A stretch of 64,000 bases of DNA. It comes from Candidatus Poribacteria bacterium (GTDB lineage Bacteria > Poribacteria > WGA-4E > JAJDTR01). A program made the translations under genes and the position numbers. Positions 50,214 through 64,000 of the stretch are shown here, piece after piece. Below the pieces are notes generated by a model that saw only the letters and a program-made list of their open reading frames with translations, was not told where the DNA came from and did not search any database. The stretch covers positions 186,001-250,000 of the forward strand of contig JAPPIK010000014.1 in assembly GCA_028820655.1 (NCBI GenBank), in the 5' to 3' direction. Every line of letters begins with the position of its first letter. The first letter of the stretch is position 1.

Positions 50214-52631
50214 ATGCGTATATTTCGAGTTATTCTAGCTATTTTATTGATTATGTCAACTGTCGTCATGGGATCGATATTTGTCGGGATTGGCTTCGTT
50301 GGCGGCGTAGTGCTTAAATCTTGGGAGGTCGTAAAGAAGGTCGATCTTGAGCAACTCGAATACCGCAAAGATGTTGACACTTGGCAGCAGCATCTTGAAA
50401 TATACTCGTCAATCTGCACCGTACAACGGGATGATTCAATTGATTTCTTGTTAAGGAAACTAGAGCGCTTGGGCTATGAAGAAACGCAGCAAGGATACAT
50501 TAAGCCCAGCCTTCCCGGGCAATATACCAAGACATTCGGTTCATCTAGAAATTCCGGAATTATGTGGATATATCTCCTTGGTTTTCACTACCCATATACG
50601 GATCGGAAACCGTATAGAGTAGAAATGGAAGTGCGAGATCGGAGAGTTGAGTCCATCCGCAACGATGTGGGGGAATATCTGACTAGCTTCGACTTGCAGC
50701 CGGAGTTAATTAGCGAGCTTTACGGCAAAGGTGGAGGAGCGCGTGAACTGATATCGCTAACCGACATGCCGGAGACACTGTTGAAGGCATTCCTTGCCGT
50801 CGAGGACAAGCGGTTTTATCGGCACTGGGGTGTAGACACAATTGCAATTGGTCGCGCGGTTCTCCGAAACATAACGGATGGGACGCTACAGGGTGCAAGC
50901 ACCATTACACAGCAACTTACTCGAAATATCTATCTCACGCGAGAGAAAAGAATCCTGCGAAAAATCAAAGAGGCGTTGCTTGCCGTGCGAATCGAGAGAG
51001 CTTTTTCCAAGGACGAGATATTCGAACGCTACCTAAATCTAATAAACTTGGGACGCTACGGTCCTCGTGAAGTGTTCGGAGTGCAAGAAGCCGCGAACAG
51101 TTACTTTGGAAAACCTGTTTGGGAACTTGAAGTGCAAGAGTGCGCTACACTTGCGGGCATTCCCAAATCTCCGACACTCTACTCACCGATCCGCAATCCA
51201 AAGGAGTCGATTAACCGTCGTAATCTTGTTCTCGGACTGATGCGAAACGCGAATTACATTTCGCAAGAGACTTACGAAGTGAGCCTGGCTACACCCCTCG
51301 CGGTTGATGCGCCCGAGGACAATCAGCGACGAGAAGCCGGGCATTTTATCGAACACGTTCATCAACAACTAGCGGACATGGAGCATCTAAATGATCGGCT
51401 GTACAATCAAGGGTTGAAGGTGTATACCACGCTTGATATGTCCATGCAGGAGATTGCGGAACAAGCGGTGGCCAATCATTTGAGGCAATTGGACAAGGGC
51501 TTTTCAAATCTGCCCGATTACGATGGCAACAAACTTGATCCCAACGGAATCAATCCAAAGAAAAATTATTTGCAGGCGGCACTAGTTGCCATGGAACCCC
51601 AGACCGGGTATATTAGATCTATGGTTGGGGGACGCGACTACTATATCGCCCGCGGGAAGTTCAATTTCTTTAATCGGGCGCATGCGCTCCGTCAGCCGGG
51701 GTCCGCGTTTAAACCGATTGTGCTTGCGGCTTTCTTCAACTTGCCGGTTCCCTTGGCGACTCCCGCAACCGTGGTCCGAGACGAGGCGTGGTCATCCATT
51801 AGCGATTTATGGAAGAAATGGACGCCACGAAATTACACGGATAGGTACTACGGAAATGTGACATTACGCACGGTACTCGAAAAGTCGATTAACGTTGCCA
51901 CTGCAAAGTTGATGAACGATCCTCATACCGTCAAACTCGGCAACGAAACGGATGGCATTAAACGGACAATCGCTTTCGCCAAACGCTTGGGCATTGAAAG
52001 CAAACTTCCTGAATATCCATCGCTCTCCCTAGGGGCCGGCGATTTAACGTTGCTGGAACTAACTTCGGCTTACTCGGTATTTGCCAACGGCGGTATACGC
52101 GCAGAGCCATGCAGCATACAATATATCGAAGATCGTAACGGAGAACTTCTATTTGAAAATGATATAAAACCCAAGAGAGTTGTTGCAGAGAGCGTAGCTT
52201 TTGTAATTACGAATGTGATGAAGGGAGTCATTGAGAATGGTACCGGTAGAAGGGCAATTCGAAGTGGTTTGATTCGTCCGGCGGCAGGAAAAACCGGTAC
52301 GACCGATGATTACAAAGATGCGTGGTTTGTCGGTTACACACCGCGCCTAGCTTCCGGCGTTTGGGTAGGGTTTGACGATCCCGAGAAAAAGAACAAACGA
52401 AGCCAAGGGGAGGGCGCCAAAGCCGCATTGCCGATTTGGGCAACGTTCATGATCGAAGGGGCGAGGGGCCCCATTGAGGACTTCCGGGAACCTCCCGGTG
52501 TCGTGTTCCACGAAATCGACAAAGAAACAGGTTTACTCAAGTACCCCGGCAAGTGTGATCCCAAGAATATTATACGAGAGGCATTCCTTGAGGGCTATGC
52601 ACCGACGATGCTTTGTACAGCGCACAACTAG
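50214..52631 (+). CDS. Class A penicillin-binding protein (PBP1b-like, UB2H plus GT51 plus transpeptidase)
   Basis: A protein of 805 residues. Residues 1-36 form an N-terminal membrane anchor. A UB2H-like region (about 65-150) precedes GT51, with catalytic E197 in A-V-E-D-K-R-F-Y-R-H-W-G and Q-G-A-S-T-I-T-Q-Q-L-T-R-N at 226-238. The transpeptidase has S497-x-x-K500 (Q-P-G-S-A-F-K-P), S558-I-N560 and K693-T-G. It polymerises glycan strands and crosslinks peptides in the periplasm. A UB2H domain in E. coli PBP1b binds the lipoprotein LpoB, and its presence argues for a didermal envelope here, though this is inference. The start has AAGG upstream. Confidence 0.92.
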   Translation: MRIFRVILAILLIMSTVVMGSIFVGIGFVGGVVLKSWEVVKKVDLEQLEYRKDVDTWQQHLEIYSSICTVQRDDSIDFLLRKLERLGYEETQQGYIKPSLPGQYTKTFGSSRNSGIMWIYLLGFHYPYTDRKPYRVEMEVRDRRVESIRNDVGEYLTSFDLQPELISELYGKGGGARELISLTDMPETLLKAFLAVEDKRFYRHWGVDTIAIGRAVLRNITDGTLQGASTITQQLTRNIYLTREKRILRKIKEALLAVRIERAFSKDEIFERYLNLINLGRYGPREVFGVQEAANSYFGKPVWELEVQECATLAGIPKSPTLYSPIRNPKESINRRNLVLGLMRNANYISQETYEVSLATPLAVDAPEDNQRREAGHFIEHVHQQLADMEHLNDRLYNQGLKVYTTLDMSMQEIAEQAVANHLRQLDKGFSNLPDYDGNKLDPNGINPKKNYLQAALVAMEPQTGYIRSMVGGRDYYIARGKFNFFNRAHALRQPGSAFKPIVLAAFFNLPVPLATPATVVRDEAWSSISDLWKKWTPRNYTDRYYGNVTLRTVLEKSINVATAKLMNDPHTVKLGNETDGIKRTIAFAKRLGIESKLPEYPSLSLGAGDLTLLELTSAYSVFANGGIRAEPCSIQYIEDRNGELLFENDIKPKRVVAESVAFVITNVMKGVIENGTGRRAIRSGLIRPAAGKTGTTDDYKDAWFVGYTPRLASGVWVGFDDPEKKNKRSQGEGAKAALPIWATFMIEGARGPIEDFREPPGVVFHEIDKETGLLKYPGKCDPKNIIREAFLEGYAPTMLCTAHN

Positions 52632-53092: not shown

Positions 53093-53458
53093 CTAATTCT
53101 GCTTGTTCTCGTTACCTCGGGGATTGTTTGAAGTATTCTTTTGGTGAAGAAATTGAAAAAACTCAAACATCGTTTCTTTGTCTTTTTCGGGCAGTTCGGT
53201 TATTCCTCGAAGCATCGCGCTGACTTTTGGATCCGCCAATAGATCATCATAGCGACTGCGCGGCTTGCCAAATAGATAGTCTGTTGTCACTTTCAGGGCT
53301 TCCGCCAGACTCGGAACTGTGTCAAAAGAGGGTTTTCTTGCGCCCGATTCAAATTGTGAAATCGCCGCCGGTGTAATATTGGCTGCTTTTGCAAGCCCTG
53401 TCTGAGTCAAATTGAGTTCGTGGCGGCGCTTTCGGATCCGTGAAACTACGTTTTCCAT
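53093..53458 (-). CDS. XRE-family helix-turn-helix transcriptional regulator
   Basis: A protein of 121 residues. Residues 1-60 form a Cro/CI-type helix-turn-helix (I-R-K-R-R-H-E-L-N-L-T-Q-T-G-L-A-K-A-A-N-I-T-P-A-A-I-S-Q-F-E-S-G-A-R-K-P). The C-terminal part is charged and helical, consistent with a dimerisation region, ending in an asparagine-rich tail. The start has AAAGGAA upstream. It stands alone, about 770 bases from the divergent giant gene; targets are unknown. Confidence 0.88.
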   Translation of the reverse strand: MENVVSRIRKRRHELNLTQTGLAKAANITPAAISQFESGARKPSFDTVPSLAEALKVTTDYLFGKPRSRYDDLLADPKVSAMLRGITELPEKDKETMFEFFQFLHQKNTSNNPRGNENKQN

Positions 53459-54131: not shown

Positions 54132-54160
54132 TTGACAAGGCAAAACGACTATGTTAGAAT
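54132..54160 (+). promoter_or_regulatory. Sigma70-type promoter of the giant FtsX fusion operon
   Basis: TTGACA (54132-54137), a 17-base spacer and TAGAAT (54155-54160) match 11 of 12 consensus bases. The start codon is about 60 bases downstream of the predicted initiation point, with GGAGG in front. Confidence 0.7.
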
Positions 54161-54226: not shown

Positions 54227-57200
54227 ATGTTCAGAAAATCAACAATCTCTGTAGTAATGATTTATTGCTTATTCGCGCAGTTCACCTTTGTGTCTACCGG
54301 CATTACCGCCGACGGACAGCAAACACTAGGACTCTCCGAGACGGCGGTAAAGATCCGCGACGAGGTTTCTGCGGGCAGGATGCGGAAAGACATCGCTAGG
54401 CTTTCCAGTCTCACCACTCGTGTTACCGGCTATGACGAGGCAGCGAACGGGTCCAAATATGTTTTTGACCGGTTTGTTGAAATTGGCTTGCAAAATGTTG
54501 AGGCACGCGGATTTGAGATTACCGTGCCGATTGACGCAGAGGATGGGAAACTTGAGGTCATCTCGCCGGATGGAACCGTTTCCAAGAGCGTCAAAATATC
54601 ACCCTGTTGGCCCAATCTCGTGCGCACCTCCCTCCTGCCGAACGGCATCAAGCATCTTGTCGATTCCGATGAATCTCTTGAAGAGATTGCCCAATCCTAC
54701 GAGGTTGACGTTCAATCTATACTCACCAATTCCAACAATCAATATCTAGTGGATCAGTCGGCTGACGGCCGAGACAATGACGGCGATGGCGAAATTGACG
54801 AAGCAGGCGAGTTTGCGTTAATTGAGGGGAATACGGTTTTTGTGCCTACCGGCGGGTTAACGGCGCCACTGGTTTATGCAGGCGATGCCGAACTCGTCGA
54901 TTTCAACGGGTTGGATGTTGGCGGATTTTGGTACGAGGTGCAACCCAGCGACACAATCGAACACGTTTCCCGCCGATTCCGCGTCAGCAAAGGCAGCATC
55001 ACCGATGATGTTCTGAACGGACATCTCCAGAAGACGGAGGACGGAATCGACAATGATGAAGACGCCGAAGTCGACGAATATGGAGAGATTCCGCCTCTCG
55101 AGGAGATTGCGCATTGGCGTGACGACGGAATTGACAATGACGGCGACGGCTACGCGGATGAGATTCCCGGAGATGATAGAGACGGCATAGACAATAATAG
55201 AGACGGGCAAGTCGATGAGCCGGGCGAGTTTGTGGGCGCAGGCGAATCCAGCATATTTATTCCCCAAGGCAGCATTGTCCTCGTCGACTTCAATTCTGGC
55301 ACTCGATGGATAAACGCCGCCATGCTAGGTGCCAAGGCGGCAATCTTCATCGAACCGGAGACTACCATCCGTGGTGAAGCGGAGAACAAATTCTTGACGG
55401 TTCCCGCTAACATTCCCCGATTTTGGATCTCCAAGAAGGATGCAGAGGATCTCCGGTCGATGATGTCTCAAGGAGAGATTTCCGCGCGTTTAACGTGTAC
55501 CATGACGTGGGAACGACGTACCGGGCAGAATATTCGCGGCTTTCTTGAAGGTAACGATCCCGTTTTAAAGGACGAACTTGTCGTTCTCACCGCCTACTAT
55601 GATTCGATGTCTATCGTGCCGGCAATGGCTCCCGGTGCCGATCCTACGGGCGGCGTAGCCGCACTGCTTGAATTGGCACGTATATTCAAGCAAGAAGAAT
55701 TCCGCCCGGGACGCTCCATATTGTTTGTCGCAACCGATGCACACTTTCAAGGATTGGCGGGGATGCGGGCATTTATGGAGGGAATTGGCCAAGATACCGT
55801 TGGTGGAACTACGGATTCACCGGGAACGCCTACGATGCACGGATTACGGCGCGGGCTGTCGGCAGACATCTTTGAATTCCAGGAGCTGGGGAGGAAGTTG
55901 TTGTTGTCGATTGACCGGAGCGTGTTAGTCGACTTACCGCCAGATTTCTATTACGAAGTTCACAAAATTGAATCGGATCTTGATTCGCTCGCTACGACGT
56001 TGTCGGCACTGTCGGGCACACAGGGCAAGGTTGGCTCGCTTCGCAATGCGCAACGAGACTTCAAGGAGAAACAGAAAAAGAAAATTGAAAGCACGAAGAA
56101 ACGGGAGAAACAGGGATTTACCTCGGAAGAAAAATCTCGGCTTGAGACAAATCTTGCTTCGTTCAAGAAGGATTCCCTGCAAACGGCTCACTTTCTGCGC
56201 GACATTGTAGTTCGCATAGATCGACTTCGTTCGCAAGCGCTTGAGGAATCTCGGAAAGCGCAACGGGAATTGCTCGAGAATATCGCGTTACCTATTGCAC
56301 ATCTCGACATCTGGGCGCTTCAGCAGTTGAGAATCGACCTTGAGGAAAAGCGGATTGCAGACAGTTTTTCGCGTGAGCCTTCCGAATCGTATGCATTGCC
56401 CAAAAGAGTTGGCGACGGGTACGAAATTCCTATCGATGCTGAAGCGAGAGAATCGCACCTCGGGGAGCAAGTCAACATTCTGTCAACGTATCTTGAGGAT
56501 TGGGAATTGCGCGACTCGAGAAAATTTGCGCTCCAATTTACTCAGGAAAAGCTGCTAGACCGCCACTTGGATTTTTACGGTCTGCAGCAAATGAAGGCAT
56601 CGCGGAAGATAGTCAATCAAGCTACCCAACCGTTGGCCGACTACATCGACGTTGAGCGACAGTTGCTTGAACGAGCATTAGCGAAGATTCCGGATAGCGC
56701 CGACGCTGAAAATAAAATTAAAACCGCAATCAAGCAACTTGCTTCCGACCCGTCATTCTACCCACCGTCAATCGTCGCGGAACTCAAACAATATTTGAGC
56801 CAACCAACCGTTGAACGTTTGGATCGCACACAGACCGGCCTACAACAGAAACTGAGGGAAGCCAAAACCACCGACGCACAAGATTCGTCGCATGCGATTT
56901 TTGTCGCGGACTTCGCCAAGGATAAGCAATCTATCTTTGAGACGGCGCTTCGAAATGCACGGTTGGAAAAGAGCCGAATCCAGAATTTGCTTCGGAATCA
57001 CGGTGATCTGGTTCGCGCCTATCTGGCAGAAGAGGAGTTGGTGCTTCGCCACTATTTGTCGAGAGATGAAGTGGAACAAGCGGTCGAAGCACGATCTCAA
57101 ATTTTTGCCCACTTGTCCGAAGAAATGCTCCTTGATTTCGTGCAAAGGAAGGCTGCGAATGACGTCGTTGAGTTGAACAATCTACTGAACCAACTGGATA

Positions 57201-60200
57201 CGCTTAATCGCGACCTCAGTGAAGAGACAAAGGTTCTTCTTCGCGATAACATGCTTACGCTTAGGAATTCGCGGTTTCGCAATCTTCAAAGCCGCGTTGA
57301 AAAAATTGCTCGAATCAGTAAGTCAGAGTACAATCGCAAGATCTCCCAGATAGAACAGGCCATAACCCTTCAAGACCTCTTCAATCGGTATTACACCTCC
57401 TTATTCATCTCGATAGACCTATCTACCCAGAGCGACAAATTCGGTGTTTTCAACAAAGGTTGGTTCTACAATCAACAGCCTGAATTTGTTCTACGGCGAG
57501 AATTTGCAACCATCGGCAACAAACTGGCCGAGTATGCGGAAGACGCCGATTTTGGCGCGCGTGTCCGAAACCTTTGGACTTTTACTGATGATCAGATTCG
57601 TCACGGCGTCATGAACAATCAGTGGACGGTTTCGGGAACCATTGATTCCAAAGCGGCAGTTGAGGGCAAGACGCTGGAAACACTAATCAGTGAACACTTT
57701 GATACCCTCACGCAACTCTCCGGGGTCTCACGCTTGATGAAGTTGCAGTTTGAGCAGATGCGAGATCGCGGTGAACCGTCCGAGGATATGGTCAAGGATA
57801 TGGACTACATCCGACAGGAGGTCGAGCGATTTATCCGCAACGATGTGCGGACGGCGAAAAAGAATCGAAAGAATAGCATTCGATTGTTGAATCGACTCAA
57901 CGCGATGCTGCAACTTCGGCACGAGGACTCCTCAACCTTATCGCAGGATGAGATTGAGGACATCAAGACCCTGATCGGACTCGTAGGTCTCGGCGGAGAG
58001 ACAAACTTCGTGAATGCTATCTCTGCTAGCGGCGGAAAAACGTGGCAGACTTATATTCCCGGCAAGATAGCGTTCGACAGCGAAGTTGCCACATTAACGG
58101 GTAAAACGGGAATTGCATTCGCCACCATCGAAGATGCACGGATCCTTACCGATACCCCGTTAGACACGATTGACCGGATGCATGTAGAGGAAGATGGGAA
58201 TCTGCATCAACAGGTTAAGACACTTGCAGCCGTATTGGTGCAAGCGATGCGGGACCCGAAGATGCCGACAGCCGCGAAGGTAGGGAACTTTTACTGCAAT
58301 CTATTTGGCGATGTAGTAGAGTTTGATGCTCGCGAGAGCGCCCTTCCCAACAAGCCTGTTCCTTATCCAATCTTGACATTGCGGCGTAAGCACAAAACAA
58401 TGATGGGGGTGCGGGGCGACCTATTTACGATGGGGGACAACAAGGGGAACTTTGAGGTGGCGGGGTTGGCTATGGAGGGGCGCGCGACGCATCGAATCGC
58501 CGGCACGCAGGAGGTAGAGGCGTATATTCTTGACTCCAAATCCGGAGATATTGTGTACGCACCGGACCTTGGCAACTATGGCGCGAAGTTATTCCCCAAC
58601 AAAGTGCCAATCGACACGCGCCGCCGAGGCTGCCGCGTCGTGGTGTTTCCATGTGTGTCAACCACAATTTATGACTTGGTCGATCAGCGTTACTTGCGCA
58701 CATTGCGCGAACTCGAAGTGTATGAAGCCGCGTCGGATAGCGCCCCGGAGAAATATGGGATTTCCAAACCTTGGCAACAAGAGGGTGTTTCCGCCGCCGA
58801 ACCGATTGCGCTTGTGTATTCCGAGCCGGATCAACGCATCAAAATCGGAATGGCTTATGGTCAGATTGGGAAACGCTTGCTGTTGATTAAAGCGACGAAA
58901 AGCGGGATGAAAAATCCTACGCTGTACACGGGCGAAGGATTCGTTGTGCGAGAGAACGGCAGCATTCGAGTGACGCCTTACGTCGTTGTTCGGGATATGT
59001 GGTGGCTTGATGAGAATCGGTCGCGCCTCTACAAGCGATTCGGTATTTCAAGCGACCGGCTTGACAAGCTTCACGAATTCGCGAATGAATATCTTGAACA
59101 GGCTGAATTGGCGCTTCAACAGAATGACTATCAACAGGCGCTAAAGCTGGCCCGTGCGGCATGGGGCTATGAATCCCGCGCATATCCCGATGTCAAAAAG
59201 ACGGGGAACGATGTGGTCAGTGGAGTGATGTTTTACTTGGCGCTGCTGATTCCATTCGCCTACTTTATGGAACGCCTGCTTTTCGCCTCACCAAGCGTCA
59301 ATAAACAGATTCTTTGGACAGGAGTCATCTTCTTAACCGTATTTTTCTTCCTTTCTCAGGTGCATCCCGCTTTCCAAATTACCACCACGCCCGTGATCAT
59401 CTTGATTGCCTTTATCGTTCTTGCTCTGACGGTCATCGTGATCTCAATTATCATCCGCAAGTTCGAGGAGCAGCTTGAGAAGATTAAACAGGAGGGCAGC
59501 AAGGTTTATAAGGCTGATGTAGGAAGGTTGTCGGCGTCGGCGGCTGCGTTTAGCTTGGGGATCTCCAACATGAGGAAGAGGGGCGGACGGACAATACTGA
59601 CGTGTGCGACGCTGGTCATTCTTACGTTTACCGTTATTTCATTCACGTCGGTGCGAACCTTCATGCACCCAAACAAAACCAGCTTGCCTGCCGTAACACC
59701 GCGCTACACCGGAATGTTGATTCGGGACCAGTATTGGCGTCCATTGGAGGAACCCGTGTTGACCTCTGTCATGAACGACATGCGCAAGACCAAGATTCCC
59801 GAGGACGATGCGCGCCTTCTGTTCAAGCGGAGAGGAAAGACCGAGGCCGAGATCAATTCGCTGTTGGCGCCATATATCGAGGCAGGCGAGGATTCGCCGG
59901 AACTGCAGGAGGGTTCTAGCGGCGCGCCCACTGTCCGAGCATCGGTTGCGGGCTCTACGAGCGTGGATGATTCTTCAGGATTCATCACTGTTCACAACGT
60001 AGTGGCGCCTCGCGCGTGGTATCAATCGTCCGGCACGGGCGATCAATCGTTCGTGCAGTTGACGCGCACGCCCAATTCGGCGGATCCCGTCCCGCCGCGA
60101 GACGAGAAGACGGGCCAGTTGTTGCCCTATGCCGCAAACATGCTCATTGGGATGACGCCTAACGAGCCTGCTGCCACGGGAATTGATTTGCACCTCCAAT

Positions 60201-61639
60201 ACGGTAAATGGTTTGATCCGATGGATGAAGATTCTTGGCCCACGTCGTGGCCCTACGCCTGCATCCTCCCCAAAGGAATCGCGGATGTGTTAAAAATAAC
60301 CGAAGCGGATGTAGGCAAAGCGACAGTGTCCGTCTACGGCGCCGATTTTACGGTGGTCGGCGTGCTTGGAATCGGATTCAAAGACTTGACCGACAACGAT
60401 GGCGAAGAGATGACTCCCGTCGATTATCAATTGATGCAACAGCAGCAGTCTCGGGGAGCGCAGGGTGACGAGACACTAGAGGGCGAGTTGCAGAAGTATC
60501 TCCATTTGGTTCCGGACAGCGTCGCGATTCTGCCGTATGAAGTGGTCATGAATCAGGGCGGCACGCTAAGAAGCGTTGCCGTCAACATGGATCCCTTGGA
60601 AGGCGATCCGGCCATTTTCAGCGGTATCGACAAGCTTGATTTAATTATGTCTCCCCTGATGAGCCGCGTTGCACTCGACTTTTTCGTTGGCCGCGACAAG
60701 GATACGTACCTGTACAGTTCAATCGGCATGACGTCCTTTAGCGGAATGGGGAACCTGTTCATACCCATTCTCATCGCGGCTTTGATTGTGCTGAATACCA
60801 TGCTCGGCGCTGTCTACGAACGCGTGAGAGAGATCGGGATCTATAGTTCGGTCGGGCTTGCACCGGTACACATCGCGTTCCTTTTCCTCGCCGAAGCGTG
60901 CGTTTATGCGATTGTGGGAGCGGTTCTAGGTTATCTCTTGGGACAGGCTACCGCCACGGTAATGGTTAATTTCGGATGGCTTGCGGGATTGACATTGAAC
61001 TATTCGTCCATGTCAACAGTGGTCGCAACCATCATTGTCATGGCGGTGGTCATCGGAAGCACATTATATCCGGCAATCAAAGCGTCGCGCATGGCGGTAC
61101 CGGACATTGAGCGCAAGTGGAAATTGCCGGAGCCGGAGGGTGACGAATGGCATTTCAATCTACCGTTTACGGTGTTGTCCGAGGAATCGCTTGGTTTGAA
61201 TGTGTTCATGCGGGACTATTTCGATGCACATGCTGATGAATCCGCAAGCGACTTCTACACGGATCAGGTTACGTTCAGCGAGATGCCGGCGTCGGAAGAT
61301 GGTGAAGAGGAGGGGTCCTATTCTATCAGCATGATGGTTTGGCTCGCCCCGTACGATCTGGGCGTCAGCCAATCGATACGATTTGTCACTTCTCCGGTGG
61401 GAGGAGAAGAGGAAGATCTGTACAACATTACACTTGATGTACATCGGGAAAGCGGCGAGATTGCTTCATGGAAACGCGTTAACCGCCGTTTCTTGAATCT
61501 CGTGCGTAAACAACTCTTAATCTGGCGGACGTTCAGCGCCGATATCCGCGGAGAGTTTCACGAACGCGGTCGTCAAGAACGTGACGTGGATGAAGGCGCT
61601 ACCGGCGCTCCGGAATTGGCACCGCAACCGGCCGATTGA
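54227..61639 (+). CDS. Giant M28-peptidase-like / coiled-coil / FtsX-like permease fusion
   Basis: A protein of 2470 residues with a signal peptide and GGAGG before the ATG. Residues about 40-450 resemble the PA-like lead-in of M28 peptidases, interrupted by two LysM-like segments (near 150 and 245) and four calcium-type D-G-x-D-N-x-x-D-x-x-x-D-E loops (near 181, 272, 300 and 319). Residues about 450-580 match the M28 core, but its metal ligands are altered: A-Y-Y-D-S instead of A-H-x-D-S, and T-D-A-H in place of the E-E pair. A long charged coiled coil (about 590-1230) and a second extracytoplasmic region follow. Membrane helices near 1665-1745 and 1790, and an FtsX-type permease block near 2170-2290 (V-L-N-T-M-L-G-A-V-Y-E-R-V-R-E-I-G-I-Y) end it. 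FtsX permeases work with an ABC ATPase; none is visible here. Confidence 0.8.
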   Translation: MFRKSTISVVMIYCLFAQFTFVSTGITADGQQTLGLSETAVKIRDEVSAGRMRKDIARLSSLTTRVTGYDEAANGSKYVFDRFVEIGLQNVEARGFEITVPIDAEDGKLEVISPDGTVSKSVKISPCWPNLVRTSLLPNGIKHLVDSDESLEEIAQSYEVDVQSILTNSNNQYLVDQSADGRDNDGDGEIDEAGEFALIEGNTVFVPTGGLTAPLVYAGDAELVDFNGLDVGGFWYEVQPSDTIEHVSRRFRVSKGSITDDVLNGHLQKTEDGIDNDEDAEVDEYGEIPPLEEIAHWRDDGIDNDGDGYADEIPGDDRDGIDNNRDGQVDEPGEFVGAGESSIFIPQGSIVLVDFNSGTRWINAAMLGAKAAIFIEPETTIRGEAENKFLTVPANIPRFWISKKDAEDLRSMMSQGEISARLTCTMTWERRTGQNIRGFLEGNDPVLKDELVVLTAYYDSMSIVPAMAPGADPTGGVAALLELARIFKQEEFRPGRSILFVATDAHFQGLAGMRAFMEGIGQDTVGGTTDSPGTPTMHGLRRGLSADIFEFQELGRKLLLSIDRSVLVDLPPDFYYEVHKIESDLDSLATTLSALSGTQGKVGSLRNAQRDFKEKQKKKIESTKKREKQGFTSEEKSRLETNLASFKKDSLQTAHFLRDIVVRIDRLRSQALEESRKAQRELLENIALPIAHLDIWALQQLRIDLEEKRIADSFSREPSESYALPKRVGDGYEIPIDAEARESHLGEQVNILSTYLEDWELRDSRKFALQFTQEKLLDRHLDFYGLQQMKASRKIVNQATQPLADYIDVERQLLERALAKIPDSADAENKIKTAIKQLASDPSFYPPSIVAELKQYLSQPTVERLDRTQTGLQQKLREAKTTDAQDSSHAIFVADFAKDKQSIFETALRNARLEKSRIQNLLRNHGDLVRAYLAEEELVLRHYLSRDEVEQAVEARSQIFAHLSEEMLLDFVQRKAANDVVELNNLLNQLDTLNRDLSEETKVLLRDNMLTLRNSRFRNLQSRVEKIARISKSEYNRKISQIEQAITLQDLFNRYYTSLFISIDLSTQSDKFGVFNKGWFYNQQPEFVLRREFATIGNKLAEYAEDADFGARVRNLWTFTDDQIRHGVMNNQWTVSGTIDSKAAVEGKTLETLISEHFDTLTQLSGVSRLMKLQFEQMRDRGEPSEDMVKDMDYIRQEVERFIRNDVRTAKKNRKNSIRLLNRLNAMLQLRHEDSSTLSQDEIEDIKTLIGLVGLGGETNFVNAISASGGKTWQTYIPGKIAFDSEVATLTGKTGIAFATIEDARILTDTPLDTIDRMHVEEDGNLHQQVKTLAAVLVQAMRDPKMPTAAKVGNFYCNLFGDVVEFDARESALPNKPVPYPILTLRRKHKTMMGVRGDLFTMGDNKGNFEVAGLAMEGRATHRIAGTQEVEAYILDSKSGDIVYAPDLGNYGAKLFPNKVPIDTRRRGCRVVVFPCVSTTIYDLVDQRYLRTLRELEVYEAASDSAPEKYGISKPWQQEGVSAAEPIALVYSEPDQRIKIGMAYGQIGKRLLLIKATKSGMKNPTLYTGEGFVVRENGSIRVTPYVVVRDMWWLDENRSRLYKRFGISSDRLDKLHEFANEYLEQAELALQQNDYQQALKLARAAWGYESRAYPDVKKTGNDVVSGVMFYLALLIPFAYFMERLLFASPSVNKQILWTGVIFLTVFFFLSQVHPAFQITTTPVIILIAFIVLALTVIVISIIIRKFEEQLEKIKQEGSKVYKADVGRLSASAAAFSLGISNMRKRGGRTILTCATLVILTFTVISFTSVRTFMHPNKTSLPAVTPRYTGMLIRDQYWRPLEEPVLTSVMNDMRKTKIPEDDARLLFKRRGKTEAEINSLLAPYIEAGEDSPELQEGSSGAPTVRASVAGSTSVDDSSGFITVHNVVAPRAWYQSSGTGDQSFVQLTRTPNSADPVPPRDEKTGQLLPYAANMLIGMTPNEPAATGIDLHLQYGKWFDPMDEDSWPTSWPYACILPKGIADVLKITEADVGKATVSVYGADFTVVGVLGIGFKDLTDNDGEEMTPVDYQLMQQQQSRGAQGDETLEGELQKYLHLVPDSVAILPYEVVMNQGGTLRSVAVNMDPLEGDPAIFSGIDKLDLIMSPLMSRVALDFFVGRDKDTYLYSSIGMTSFSGMGNLFIPILIAALIVLNTMLGAVYERVREIGIYSSVGLAPVHIAFLFLAEACVYAIVGAVLGYLLGQATATVMVNFGWLAGLTLNYSSMSTVVATIIVMAVVIGSTLYPAIKASRMAVPDIERKWKLPEPEGDEWHFNLPFTVLSEESLGLNVFMRDYFDAHADESASDFYTDQVTFSEMPASEDGEEEGSYSISMMVWLAPYDLGVSQSIRFVTSPVGGEEEDLYNITLDVHRESGEIASWKRVNRRFLNLVRKQLLIWRTFSADIRGEFHERGRQERDVDEGATGAPELAPQPAD

Positions 61640-61678
61640 GAGCCTTTATTCTTGAGAGGATAGGGTATTTAGAACGTC

Positions 61679-61855
61679 ATGGAAAGATTTATAAGTATTA
61701 TTCTCATTGTCGGGGCTCTTATGTGGCTTGCCTCGATTCTCTTGTTTGGGGGACGATGGCAGTGGCAGATTTTTTCAGCGGCGATTGTGATTGTCGGTAT
61801 TATCGCTGCCCACATATGGGAGGAAGTTTTCCAGAACAAAGACGAGGAAGAATAA
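61679..61855 (+). CDS. Small two-helix membrane protein, 58 residues
   Basis: The frame starts at ATG 61679 and ends TAA at 61855. It has two hydrophobic segments (I-S-I-I-L-I-V-G-A-L-M-W-L-A-S-I-L-L-F and I-F-S-A-A-I-V-I-V-G-I-I-A-A) joined by a G-G-R-W-Q-W-Q turn, and an acidic C-terminus (E-E-V-F-Q-N-K-D-E-E-E). It lies 39 bases after the giant fusion, with GAGAGGATAGGG upstream as a weak ribosome site. Its placement suggests a small subunit of the membrane system. I do not recognise a family. Confidence 0.65.
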   Translation: MERFISIILIVGALMWLASILLFGGRWQWQIFSAAIVIVGIIAAHIWEEVFQNKDEEE

Positions 61856-62081
61856 CTTGGAACACATTGATTGCAGCTTACGGGGTTGTGGTCTTGAGCA
61901 GCCAAGTCGGTTATAGAGAGTTGGATTTGCTCCATATCGAGAAGGGCATTTCTCCTACCTGGCGGCGCGGCAATTCAGGAATAAAGAAGTCCCGGCAGGT
62001 GAAAGAAACCCAGTTATGTCTCGGAAGAGAAGACCAGCTTGTATAACGTACTTGAGCTAAACTGAAAGGAGAATACTACAT

Positions 62082-64000
62082 TTGGCGAGAGAGAGAGTAT
62101 CTCAAGCAGACGAGTGGCAGGCTTGGGCGCAACGATACGATATCGATGGTGGGATCAGGACCTTTGAATCGGGGTTGACGTTAAAGGTCTTCCTAGGCGC
62201 GCTTTTTGTCGGGCTGCTGATGATGCCGGGATCAATTTATCTTAGCTACGTGTCCGGACAATCCGGTGCGGGAGCGGCGCCGTGGGTGGCCGTCATTTTG
62301 TTTACGGAATTGGCACGCCGTTCGTTTACCACCGCTCGGCGGCAAGAATTGTATATGCTGCTCGGATTGACCGGCGCTGCCGTCGGTGCCGGCACTCAGT
62401 ATCGCGGTTTTATTTGGTATGCGTATTTTATCAATACCCCGCAAGCGGAATCTTATGAGATTGCGGACAAGATTCCTTACTGGATCGCGCCCGCGAGAGA
62501 TTCAATTGCCATTGCCGAGAGATCGCTCTTGCACTGGGATTGGACGTGGCCCATCGCCTTCTTCCTGATATTCAAACTGCTGGGAACCATCCGCGGTATC
62601 AGCGCGGGTTATATTCTATTTCGCCTTACCGCCGACCTGGAACGGCTGCCCTATCCGTTGGCGCCGATTGATGCACAGGGGGCGACAGCACTGGCTGAAA
62701 CTACCGGCAGAACCGAAACATGGCGCTGGCGCGTGTTTTCAATCGGGTCGATGGCGGGTTTGATATGGGGTTTCATTTATGTGGGAGTGCCGTCGCTAAC
62801 TGGCGTCATGATGACGAAACCCATCGAGATTCTGAAGATCCCATTCATTGACTTCACGCCAAGCATTGAAGGTTTTGCGCCAACCGGGGTGTTCGCGCTT
62901 TCAACGGATTTCGGGCAGATGCTGGTGGGATTCGTGATGCCGTTCCCAATAATCATATCGGAATTCATTACGGCGTTGTTATCGCAGTTTATCTTGAACC
63001 CGCAAATCCTGTACCGTAATGAAATACTCCACCAGTGGAAACCGGGGTTGGATGTACGGGGTGTCGGGTTGTTTAACGGGCTCGATTTCTGGATCAGTTA
63101 CGGTATGGGCAAGTCCTTCAGTTTCGCGGTTGTCGGCATGGCGGCGTCCATACCAATGCTGATTAAATTCAGGAAGTCGCAATCTCAGAAAACGGGGCAG
63201 CGCGGTTCGCTGCGTCCGCCGCCCGGACGCGGAGACTTTCCAATCTGGTTGATGGGAATCTTGTGGCTCTTTGGCATGGGGACGTTTGTGTGGTTGGTGC
63301 ACAAGAAGATGGTTCCAAACTTCCCTCTCCCATTCCTTCTCGGTTTCGCTTTTCTCTATACTCCGCTGAATTCCTACATTACCGCCCGCACGTTTGGCAT
63401 TTTGGGACGCGATCTGTTCGAGATCCCTTACATCCATGAGACCACCTTTATTCTCAGCCGCTACGAGGAAATCGATATTTGGTTCGTACCACTGCCCGAC
63501 GAAGATTACGGGCGCGGGACACAGGGTTGGCGTGTGCTTGAACTGACCGGAACGACCTTTACCAGTAACATCGCGGCGCAGTTGTTGATCATGCCGATTT
63601 TGCTCGTTTCGGGAATTGTGGTTTATCACTTCATTTGGAAAATAGCGCCGATCCCTTCGTCGCAGTATCCCTTCGTGCAAACGTGGTGGCCGATTCATGC
63701 TACCAATGAGGCGCTTTGGAAGACGTCGCTCCGGGATGGGAACAGCCAGATGCTGCAGGCGATTCGCGGTGAATATGTTGCCGCCGGGTTCTCATCCACG
63801 CTTGCGTTGTACGGGTTGTTATGGGTGTGGAAGATGCCGAGTATGTGGTTCTACGGGATCGCGGGCGGCATCGGAGGCGACCCAGGTATGATGATACCCC
63901 GACTTCTCGGCGCGGTGATCGGTCGATTCTATATGATTAAACGGTTCGGGCTGAAGCGGTGGTTCATGTTTAATCCAGTTTTGGCTGCCGGCTTCGCTTG
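62082..64000 (+). CDS. Polytopic membrane protein, OPT/peptide-transporter-like, 3' truncated by window edge
   Basis: The frame starts at TTG 62082 with AAAGGAG about 10 bases upstream and is open to the right edge (639 codons visible). It has many hydrophobic segments, a G-Q-S-G-A-G-A-A-P-W-V-A-V loop after helix 1, R-L-P-Y-P-L-A-P-I-D and repeated large loops. The pattern resembles OPT-like transporters and the DUF6785 membrane proteins; the gene at 23502 is a distant relative at most. It is preceded by the small membrane protein and giant FtsX fusion, all same-strand, probably one operon. The transported substrate is unknown. Confidence 0.65.
   Translation, partial: MARERVSQADEWQAWAQRYDIDGGIRTFESGLTLKVFLGALFVGLLMMPGSIYLSYVSGQSGAGAAPWVAVILFTELARRSFTTARRQELYMLLGLTGAAVGAGTQYRGFIWYAYFINTPQAESYEIADKIPYWIAPARDSIAIAERSLLHWDWTWPIAFFLIFKLLGTIRGISAGYILFRLTADLERLPYPLAPIDAQGATALAETTGRTETWRWRVFSIGSMAGLIWGFIYVGVPSLTGVMMTKPIEILKIPFIDFTPSIEGFAPTGVFALSTDFGQMLVGFVMPFPIIISEFITALLSQFILNPQILYRNEILHQWKPGLDVRGVGLFNGLDFWISYGMGKSFSFAVVGMAASIPMLIKFRKSQSQKTGQRGSLRPPPGRGDFPIWLMGILWLFGMGTFVWLVHKKMVPNFPLPFLLGFAFLYTPLNSYITARTFGILGRDLFEIPYIHETTFILSRYEEIDIWFVPLPDEDYGRGTQGWRVLELTGTTFTSNIAAQLLIMPILLVSGIVVYHFIWKIAPIPSSQYPFVQTWWPIHATNEALWKTSLRDGNSQMLQAIRGEYVAAGFSSTLALYGLLWVWKMPSMWFYGIAGGIGGDPGMMIPRLLGAVIGRFYMIKRFGLKRWFMFNPVLAAGFA

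Follow-up and report, generated by a model that had tools for sequence, protein, structure and literature searches.

How could a membrane permease act on an extracytoplasmic partner that is part of its own polypeptide chain? This question is raised by a giant gene at the right edge of the window, the term used here for the whole stretch of 64,000 nucleotides analysed (C15:186001-250000, from a Poribacteria genome whose 61 contigs add up to 5.88 Mb). The gene is an intact open reading frame (ORF) for 2470 amino acids (54227..61639, plus strand), followed on the same strand by ORFs for a 58-residue membrane protein and an OPT-like protein. The initial annotation had reported these three ORFs, whose positions were confirmed, had described the giant product as an FtsX-type permease fused to its extracytoplasmic partner, and had suggested a new envelope machine. 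The permease, the fused partner and the conserved gene order were supported, and an envelope machine seems probable. It had also stated that no ATPase was present; this has to be corrected, because the window edge cuts an operon that ends, just past it, with the gene of a LolD/MacB-type ATPase. The best overall explanation is a type VII ATP-binding cassette (ABC) machine in which a dead partner, formed by a PA and an M28 domain, would be built into the permease chain, with a probability of roughly 55%. The broader assignment to the type VII (MacB/LolCDE/FtsEX) superfamily of ABC machines, with a fused pseudo-enzyme, is considered very probable. The permease, the ATPase, the pseudo-enzyme and the conserved operon are established at the sequence level.

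The permease chain and its conservation

Hydropathy analysis of the giant protein gave an N-terminal hydrophobic segment (residues 5-27), in keeping with the signal peptide-like start noted before, and about seven further transmembrane (TM) helices, three at residues 1662-1748, one at 1786-1809 and three at 2169-2287. The FtsX part comprises TM1 with a MacB-like periplasmic core (residues 1786-2168; 59582..60730, plus strand as all features of the chain; MacB_PCD, E 1.2e-3), and a C-terminal part with TM2-4 and the coupling segment ERVREIGIYSSVG (residues 2169-2290; 60731..61096), which matched PF02687 above its cut-off (E 3.5e-12). The coupling segment ERVREIGIYSSVGL was conserved in the alignment of relatives. 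The score of the MacB-like core was 19.6 bits in the window protein, versus a cut-off of 27 bits, while two relatives from other phyla scored above it (L150, 28.2 bits; L156, 32.7 bits). The PDB matches of the FtsX part include LolC, MacB, YtrF and LolF. The three helices at 1662-1748 (59210..59470) are additional to the FtsX set and, according to hydropathy and alignments, are also present in the outgroups. They are preceded by a conserved extracytoplasmic domain (residues 1381-1660; 58367..59206) that was delimited by alignments and matches no known family. The chain ends with another conserved domain (residues 2291-2470; 61097..61636), cytoplasmic by topology, for which no known family was found and which hhalign indicated to be unrelated to the 309-residue protein of the operon.

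Near full-length orthologues of the giant gene occur across the phylum, in 82 of the 85 Poribacteria genomes sampled (10 families, 22 genera), always as a single copy except for a lone second copy in the genus of the window and a few genes split across contigs. With respect to the closest relative (90% identical), the nonsynonymous and synonymous rates were dN ~0.05 and dS ~1.0, respectively (dN/dS ~0.05); the ratio was 0.07 for the helical arm described below, 0.02-0.06 for the OPT-like, 309-residue, PqqD-like and ATPase genes of the operon, and ~0.28 for the 58-residue protein. The low dN versus dS, together with the phylum-wide orthologues, places the giant gene beyond chance. The second copy (2559 amino acids; L011:5933-13612, on G000:C41, and L042) is found only in the genus of the window and lacks the operon; in L011 it is surrounded by genes with WD40- and TolB-like repeats. 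No relative of the giant protein was found in viral contigs, and plasmids yielded FtsX matches of a generic kind only, without any OPT-like relative.

The PA and M28 domains and their inserts

The match of the giant protein to the M28 family (39.9 bits versus a cut-off of 21.3) identifies its first segment (residues 435-518; 55529..55780; PF04389, E 4.7e-10). Among 20 giant relatives submitted to a Pfam scan, M28 was found in all 20 and the PA domain in 16 (best E 7.4e-5). The C-terminal part of the PA domain of the window protein (residues 346-409; 55262..55453) gave PF02225 with E 8.8e-5, at 23.0 bits versus a cut-off of 23.9. The positions that in M28 peptidases hold the His-Asp-Glu-Asp-His dimetal ligands and the catalytic Glu are replaced in all cases but one (by Tyr, Pro, His-Phe and Asp). 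The AHYDS motif has changed to [AG]YYD[SA], the bridging Asp to Pro and the Glu-Glu pair to His-Phe, with no exception in 61 full-length sequences, where Y457, P473, H506 and F507 are invariant (61/61). Deep Poribacteria families show Tyr or Phe for the first His, Pro or Thr for the Asp, and His-Phe for the Glu pair; outgroups in other phyla keep His-Phe and have VDTP or IDTP instead of the final His motif. The bridging-ligand position varies among groups. The same genomes also code for genuine M28 proteins whose motifs are intact. Judged by these sequences, the M28 domain of the giant protein is a phylum-wide, old and conserved pseudo-peptidase that carries a PA domain. So, an active M28 enzyme with canonical ligands was rejected at this level, since the ligand positions are replaced in all the relatives examined, and the earlier description of an M28-like domain with altered ligands, not an ordinary peptidase, holds for the 61 near relatives and the outgroups alike.

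In eukaryotes, PA/M28 heads devoid of activity serve as receptors, as is the case of nicastrin. The PDB matches of the PA and M28 part include Nicalin, and one relative gave a weak Pfam match to Nicastrin. By its domain pattern, a PA domain placed before a ligand-less M28 domain is taken to work like the nicastrin-type families of eukaryotes without being a member of them.

Relatives of the giant protein were detected in 5 of ~204 genomes sampled outside the phylum, the complete proteins having 1460-1640 residues. In one outgroup phylum they occurred in 16 of 16 sampled genomes, with 2-8 copies or fragments each. In a genome of the phylum of G195 (G301), as many as eight matches to the shorter permease, either copies or fragments, were counted, which suggests diversification of the ectodomain. 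The outgroup proteins are ~1000 residues shorter, and their pseudo-M28 domain is uninterrupted. When aligned with genuine M28 proteins by hhalign, the outgroup domain matched over its whole length (98.8%, E 4e-17), and that of L155 covered positions 1-186 of the 193 of the Pfam profile. The contiguous outgroup domain and its whole-domain match lead to the interpretation that the Poribacteria M28 domain is interrupted by a 539-residue arm and a 142-residue insert. Its pieces are then segment 1; the helical arm (residues 519-1057; 55781..57397), which is predicted to be helical; segment 2 (residues 1058-1107; 57398..57547), with the retained Asp D1064; the second helical insert (residues 1108-1249; 57548..57973); and segment 3 (residues 1250-1380; 57974..58366), where TDTPLDT is found and D1309 takes the place of the last His ligand. 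A single insertion of ~700 residues had been considered and was replaced by the two inserts after the outgroup alignment.

It was the contiguity of the outgroup domains that settled the C-terminal part of the M28 domain. In an unbiased hhalign scan with 120-residue windows, residues 1231-1410 came next after the N-terminal half, weakly and in the right register. Joining the halves changed the Pfam score from 45.9 to 44.8 bits in the window protein, from 37.7 to 45.5 in L098 and from 39.3 to 42.0 in L101, which is weak evidence when taken alone. An AlphaFold model of residues 30-620 had a predicted local distance difference test (pLDDT) score of 50, which in hindsight is explained by the domain having been cut in two. 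In a model of residues 396-1500, the arm was helical with pLDDT mostly 85-94, while the M28 segments were mostly below 50; Foldseek with this model gave no match at E <= 0.001. So, the long coiled coil noted previously stands as a predicted helical region, to which it must be added that it splits the M28 domain, a point that had been missed.

The PA region of Poribacteria is also interrupted, according to the alignment with the outgroups, by modules with LysM and calcium-type loops. The first insert (residues 138-206; 54638..54844) contains a LysM and a calcium-type loop, and the second (residues 232-346; 54920..55264) a second LysM-like segment and calcium-type loops. The three DGIDNxxD loops at residues 272, 300 and 319 agree with those reported before. 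The LysM-like segments were also borne out, with LysM in 20 of the 20 relatives at E <= 0.01 (best 9.2e-12), the window protein itself remaining sub-threshold (18.9 versus 20.9 bits). No LytM domain was found in the giant protein by the Pfam scan. The outgroups lack the two LysM and calcium-loop inserts and the two helical inserts. At the region of L156 (6844-11748) that matches the Poribacteria arm, an F5/8-type-C domain lies within the pseudo-M28, from which it follows that the site accepts modules.

Operon genes and a candidate second permease

The genes for the giant, OPT-like, 309-residue, PqqD-like and ATPase proteins follow in this order on one strand in 54 of the 57 loci with enough sequence, so that the conservation of gene order proposed as a check was found. 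The three exceptions are the lone paralogue of L042 and two further loci in which part of the set was not found over a distance of 10 kb. Median intergenic gaps were ~100-400 bases and reached up to several kb, for which reason the set is better described as a conserved neighbourhood, not necessarily always as one transcript. In the window, a promoter-like site (TTGACA-17-TAGAAT, 54132..54160, plus strand; 11 of 12 consensus matches) precedes the giant gene, and no terminator-like site was found on the plus strand in the intergenic gaps; both being pattern matches only, they are compatible with the single promoter assumed earlier for the three genes. A divergent XRE-type helix-turn-helix regulator of 121 amino acids (53093..53458, minus strand; HTH_3, E 7e-15) is a candidate regulator of the operon; of the 58 loci whose upstream sequence was long enough, 41 have such a divergent gene at no more than 2.5 kb upstream of the giant one.

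The ATPase that closes the operon (L010:5758-6573, plus strand; positions in L010 equal window positions minus 60000) matched TIGR02211 with E 6e-69, and its motifs are intact and invariant in 17 aligned sequences. LolCDE proper was rejected, as both this ATPase (231.9 versus 307.75 bits for LolD, TIGR02211) and the giant protein (14.6 versus 362.45 bits, TIGR02212) scored below the equivalog cut-offs. Two operon genes missed by the initial annotation encode the PqqD-like protein (L010:5341-5754, plus strand; PF05402, E 3.4e-12, 46.9 versus 23.4 bits) and the 309-residue protein (L010:4226-5155, plus strand), in which one and the same domain occurs twice (hhalign 93%, E 2.5e-7). No radical SAM enzyme or precursor peptide was found among the operon proteins scanned, the wider neighbourhood being unscreened.

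The OPT-like membrane protein has 664 amino acids (62082..64000, continuing to L010:4076, plus strand). Its earlier naming as an OPT-like transporter is weakly supported, through a remote match of one outgroup orthologue (L150, E 3.8e-4, 19.7 versus 25.8 bits, over most of the profile); in Poribacteria there was no significant match to Pfam OPT (PF03169), the only hit among 18 sequences having E 5.2. In L012, L013, L033, L039, L047 and L062 this protein gave two or three separate tblastn matches, which suggests extra copies between the giant and 309-residue genes. DUF6785/DUF6784 proteins adjoin outgroup giant genes (L154:12606-14600; L156:4571-6592); no mention of DUF6785 was found in open-licence papers. 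The 58-residue membrane protein (61679..61855, plus strand) has a homologue in 52 of 57 loci, and none was detected in the outgroups and in several of the deep families; sub-threshold matches to Aph-1 and SLATT were treated as chance.

In the outgroups L150 and L151, the operon contains the giant, OPT-like, (in L150) 309-residue and PqqD genes, followed by a small FtsX of ~220 residues and the ATPase. In L156, the 309-residue, PqqD, small FtsX and ATPase genes are upstream of the giant and OPT-like genes. The small FtsX is absent from the Poribacteria operon. An FtsX of 226 residues, also overlooked before, is encoded elsewhere in the genome (C4:365603-366280), beside a second LolD-like ATPase (both genes together, L169:5788-7278, G000:C4). 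This FtsX is 43-49% identical to the outgroup ones, and 28 of 30 Poribacteria genomes have it. Inspection of its sequence showed that no more than a few tens of residues separate the first two TM segments. It is an orthologue candidate and a possible partner of the giant permease; whether the permease is a lopsided heterodimer of both chains is, in our estimation, an even bet.

Two more neighbours were noted. A class A penicillin-binding protein gene upstream (window 50214-52631) occupies the same place only in the closest relative, L036, and is therefore considered to be outside it. Between the operon and a GroEL gene there are two overlapping minus-strand ORFs (L010:7875-8748) with the appearance of a single transposase gene broken by a frameshift.

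Proposed mechanism, alternatives and known systems

In the type VII superfamily, the binding of ATP is known to set periplasmic domains in motion while nothing is carried across the inner membrane (PMC5985334). In the machine proposed here, the LolD-type ATPase would dimerise upon ATP binding and push the FtsX coupling segment of a permease in which the giant chain would be paired with a small FtsX that has hardly any periplasmic part. This would displace the MacB-like core together with the fused ectodomain, in a mechanotransmission without transport through the inner membrane, the moved object being the pseudo-M28/PA head. This fold may serve, as nicastrin does, to receive or gate substrates that are polypeptides or peptides, and it may work together with the OPT-like and PqqD-like proteins. 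The LysM, calcium-loop and helical-arm modules of Poribacteria probably tether or extend the ectodomain towards peptidoglycan. As the arm, LysM and calcium loops are absent in the outgroups, the common job would be done by the core set, that is, the pseudo-aminopeptidase, the OPT-like, PqqD-like and 309-residue proteins and the ABC permease. Concerning the earlier guess of peptidoglycan or peptide handling, contact with peptidoglycan is unlikely as a family-wide function, because the outgroups have no LysM or calcium loops. Handling of peptides or polypeptides is favoured, since inactive PA/M28 heads are receptors in eukaryotes and the PqqD and OPT folds are peptide-linked; by this analogy it can be put forward only tentatively. 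A more daring version, which we hold with considerable doubt, is that the dead receptor, fused to its type VII permease and paired with a domain-poor FtsX, would select envelope polypeptides by their ends and move these with ATP, and that the site between two M28 strands would be a module socket, filled by a 540-residue arm in Poribacteria and by an F5/8-type-C domain in another group.

Several observations weigh against this explanation. The model of residues 396-1500 did not show the M28 segments assembling into one fold, the OPT membership of the 664-residue protein is weakly supported, and not every protein with a PqqD or OPT fold acts on peptides. In another phylum (G195) the 309-PqqD-small FtsX-ATPase block is apart from three giant loci, so this module may be shared or separate. 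Finally, the giant permease could be driven by the ATPase of the operon, by the unlinked ATPase beside the small FtsX, or by both.

The alternatives differ in what the moving head would do. FtsEX drives EnvC, whose coiled coil and LytM domain pass the motion of FtsX to amidases (PMC7668044), and the long arm, LysM and dead enzyme domain of the giant protein parallel EnvC. ATP-driven motion could accordingly travel along the arm to a LysM-anchored pseudo-enzyme head that switches on a separate wall hydrolase. However, the outgroups have neither LysM nor arm, which makes this improbable as the common function of the family, the operon has no hydrolase, and the dead domain is a peptidase fold and not LytM, so that we judge it unlikely. 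Less likely still is an extractor of the Lol or YbbAP kind, which would lift lipoproteins or lipids from the inner membrane and hand them to the fused head. The best NCBIfam match of the ATPase is LolD, the permease matches LolC, and YbbAP is known to present membrane compounds to the periplasmic hydrolase TesA (PMC12646458); nevertheless, the ATPase does not reach the equivalog cut-off for LolD, the fused head has a dead peptidase fold and is neither a lipid carrier nor an esterase, and elsewhere the genome codes for a distinct LolC/E-like permease (245 bits), which also makes a replacement of LolCDE unlikely.

A head that is an active metallopeptidase after all, with a metal site rebuilt from residues such as H506, D1064 and D1309, is very improbable. 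It is true that H506 is invariant and that Asp is conserved at the other two positions, but those of the first His, the bridging Asp, the catalytic Glu, the Glu ligand and the last His are all replaced, one ligand position is occupied by Phe and the bridging position varies among groups. A type VII machine with a dead PA/M28 partner in its permease chain is maintained as the preferred explanation. No paper describing the giant system was found among open-licence papers. Its interest is that the partner would belong to the permease chain, so that the passage of force to it can be tested directly, and that a giant gene found almost throughout an uncultivated phylum gains a plausible class.

Compared with MacB, LolCDE and YbbAP, the giant system shares the FtsX C-terminal domain, the MacB-like core, the LolD-type ATPase and the coupling segment; it differs in the three extra TM helices, in an ectodomain of >1600 residues before the first of them, in the conserved C-terminal domain and in the associated OPT-like, PqqD-like and 309-residue proteins. 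Likeness to OPT transporters and DUF6785/DUF6784 proteins consists of the remote similarity of the 664-residue protein and the adjacency of a DUF6785 gene to an outgroup giant gene, while the Poribacteria members differ in having no significant Pfam OPT match. In FtsEX-EnvC, too, an FtsX-type permease drives a periplasmic helical arm and an enzyme domain that is dead (PMC7668044); in the giant protein, arm and dead domain are within the permease chain, the domain is M28 and not LytM, and the outgroups are armless. YbbAP-TesA likewise has a partner of hydrolase fold on the periplasmic side of a type VII ABC permease (PMC12646458), whereas here the partner is fused, dead and of peptidase fold. 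With the pseudo-peptidases of the nicastrin, nicalin and transferrin receptor type, the giant protein has in common a PA and M28 ectodomain without catalysis, from which it differs in being bacterial, in its fusion to an ABC permease and in the long M28 inserts of Poribacteria. So, it can be said that the dead M28/PA ectodomain would be a bacterial parallel to nicastrin, and at the same time a dead domain used as an insertion platform.

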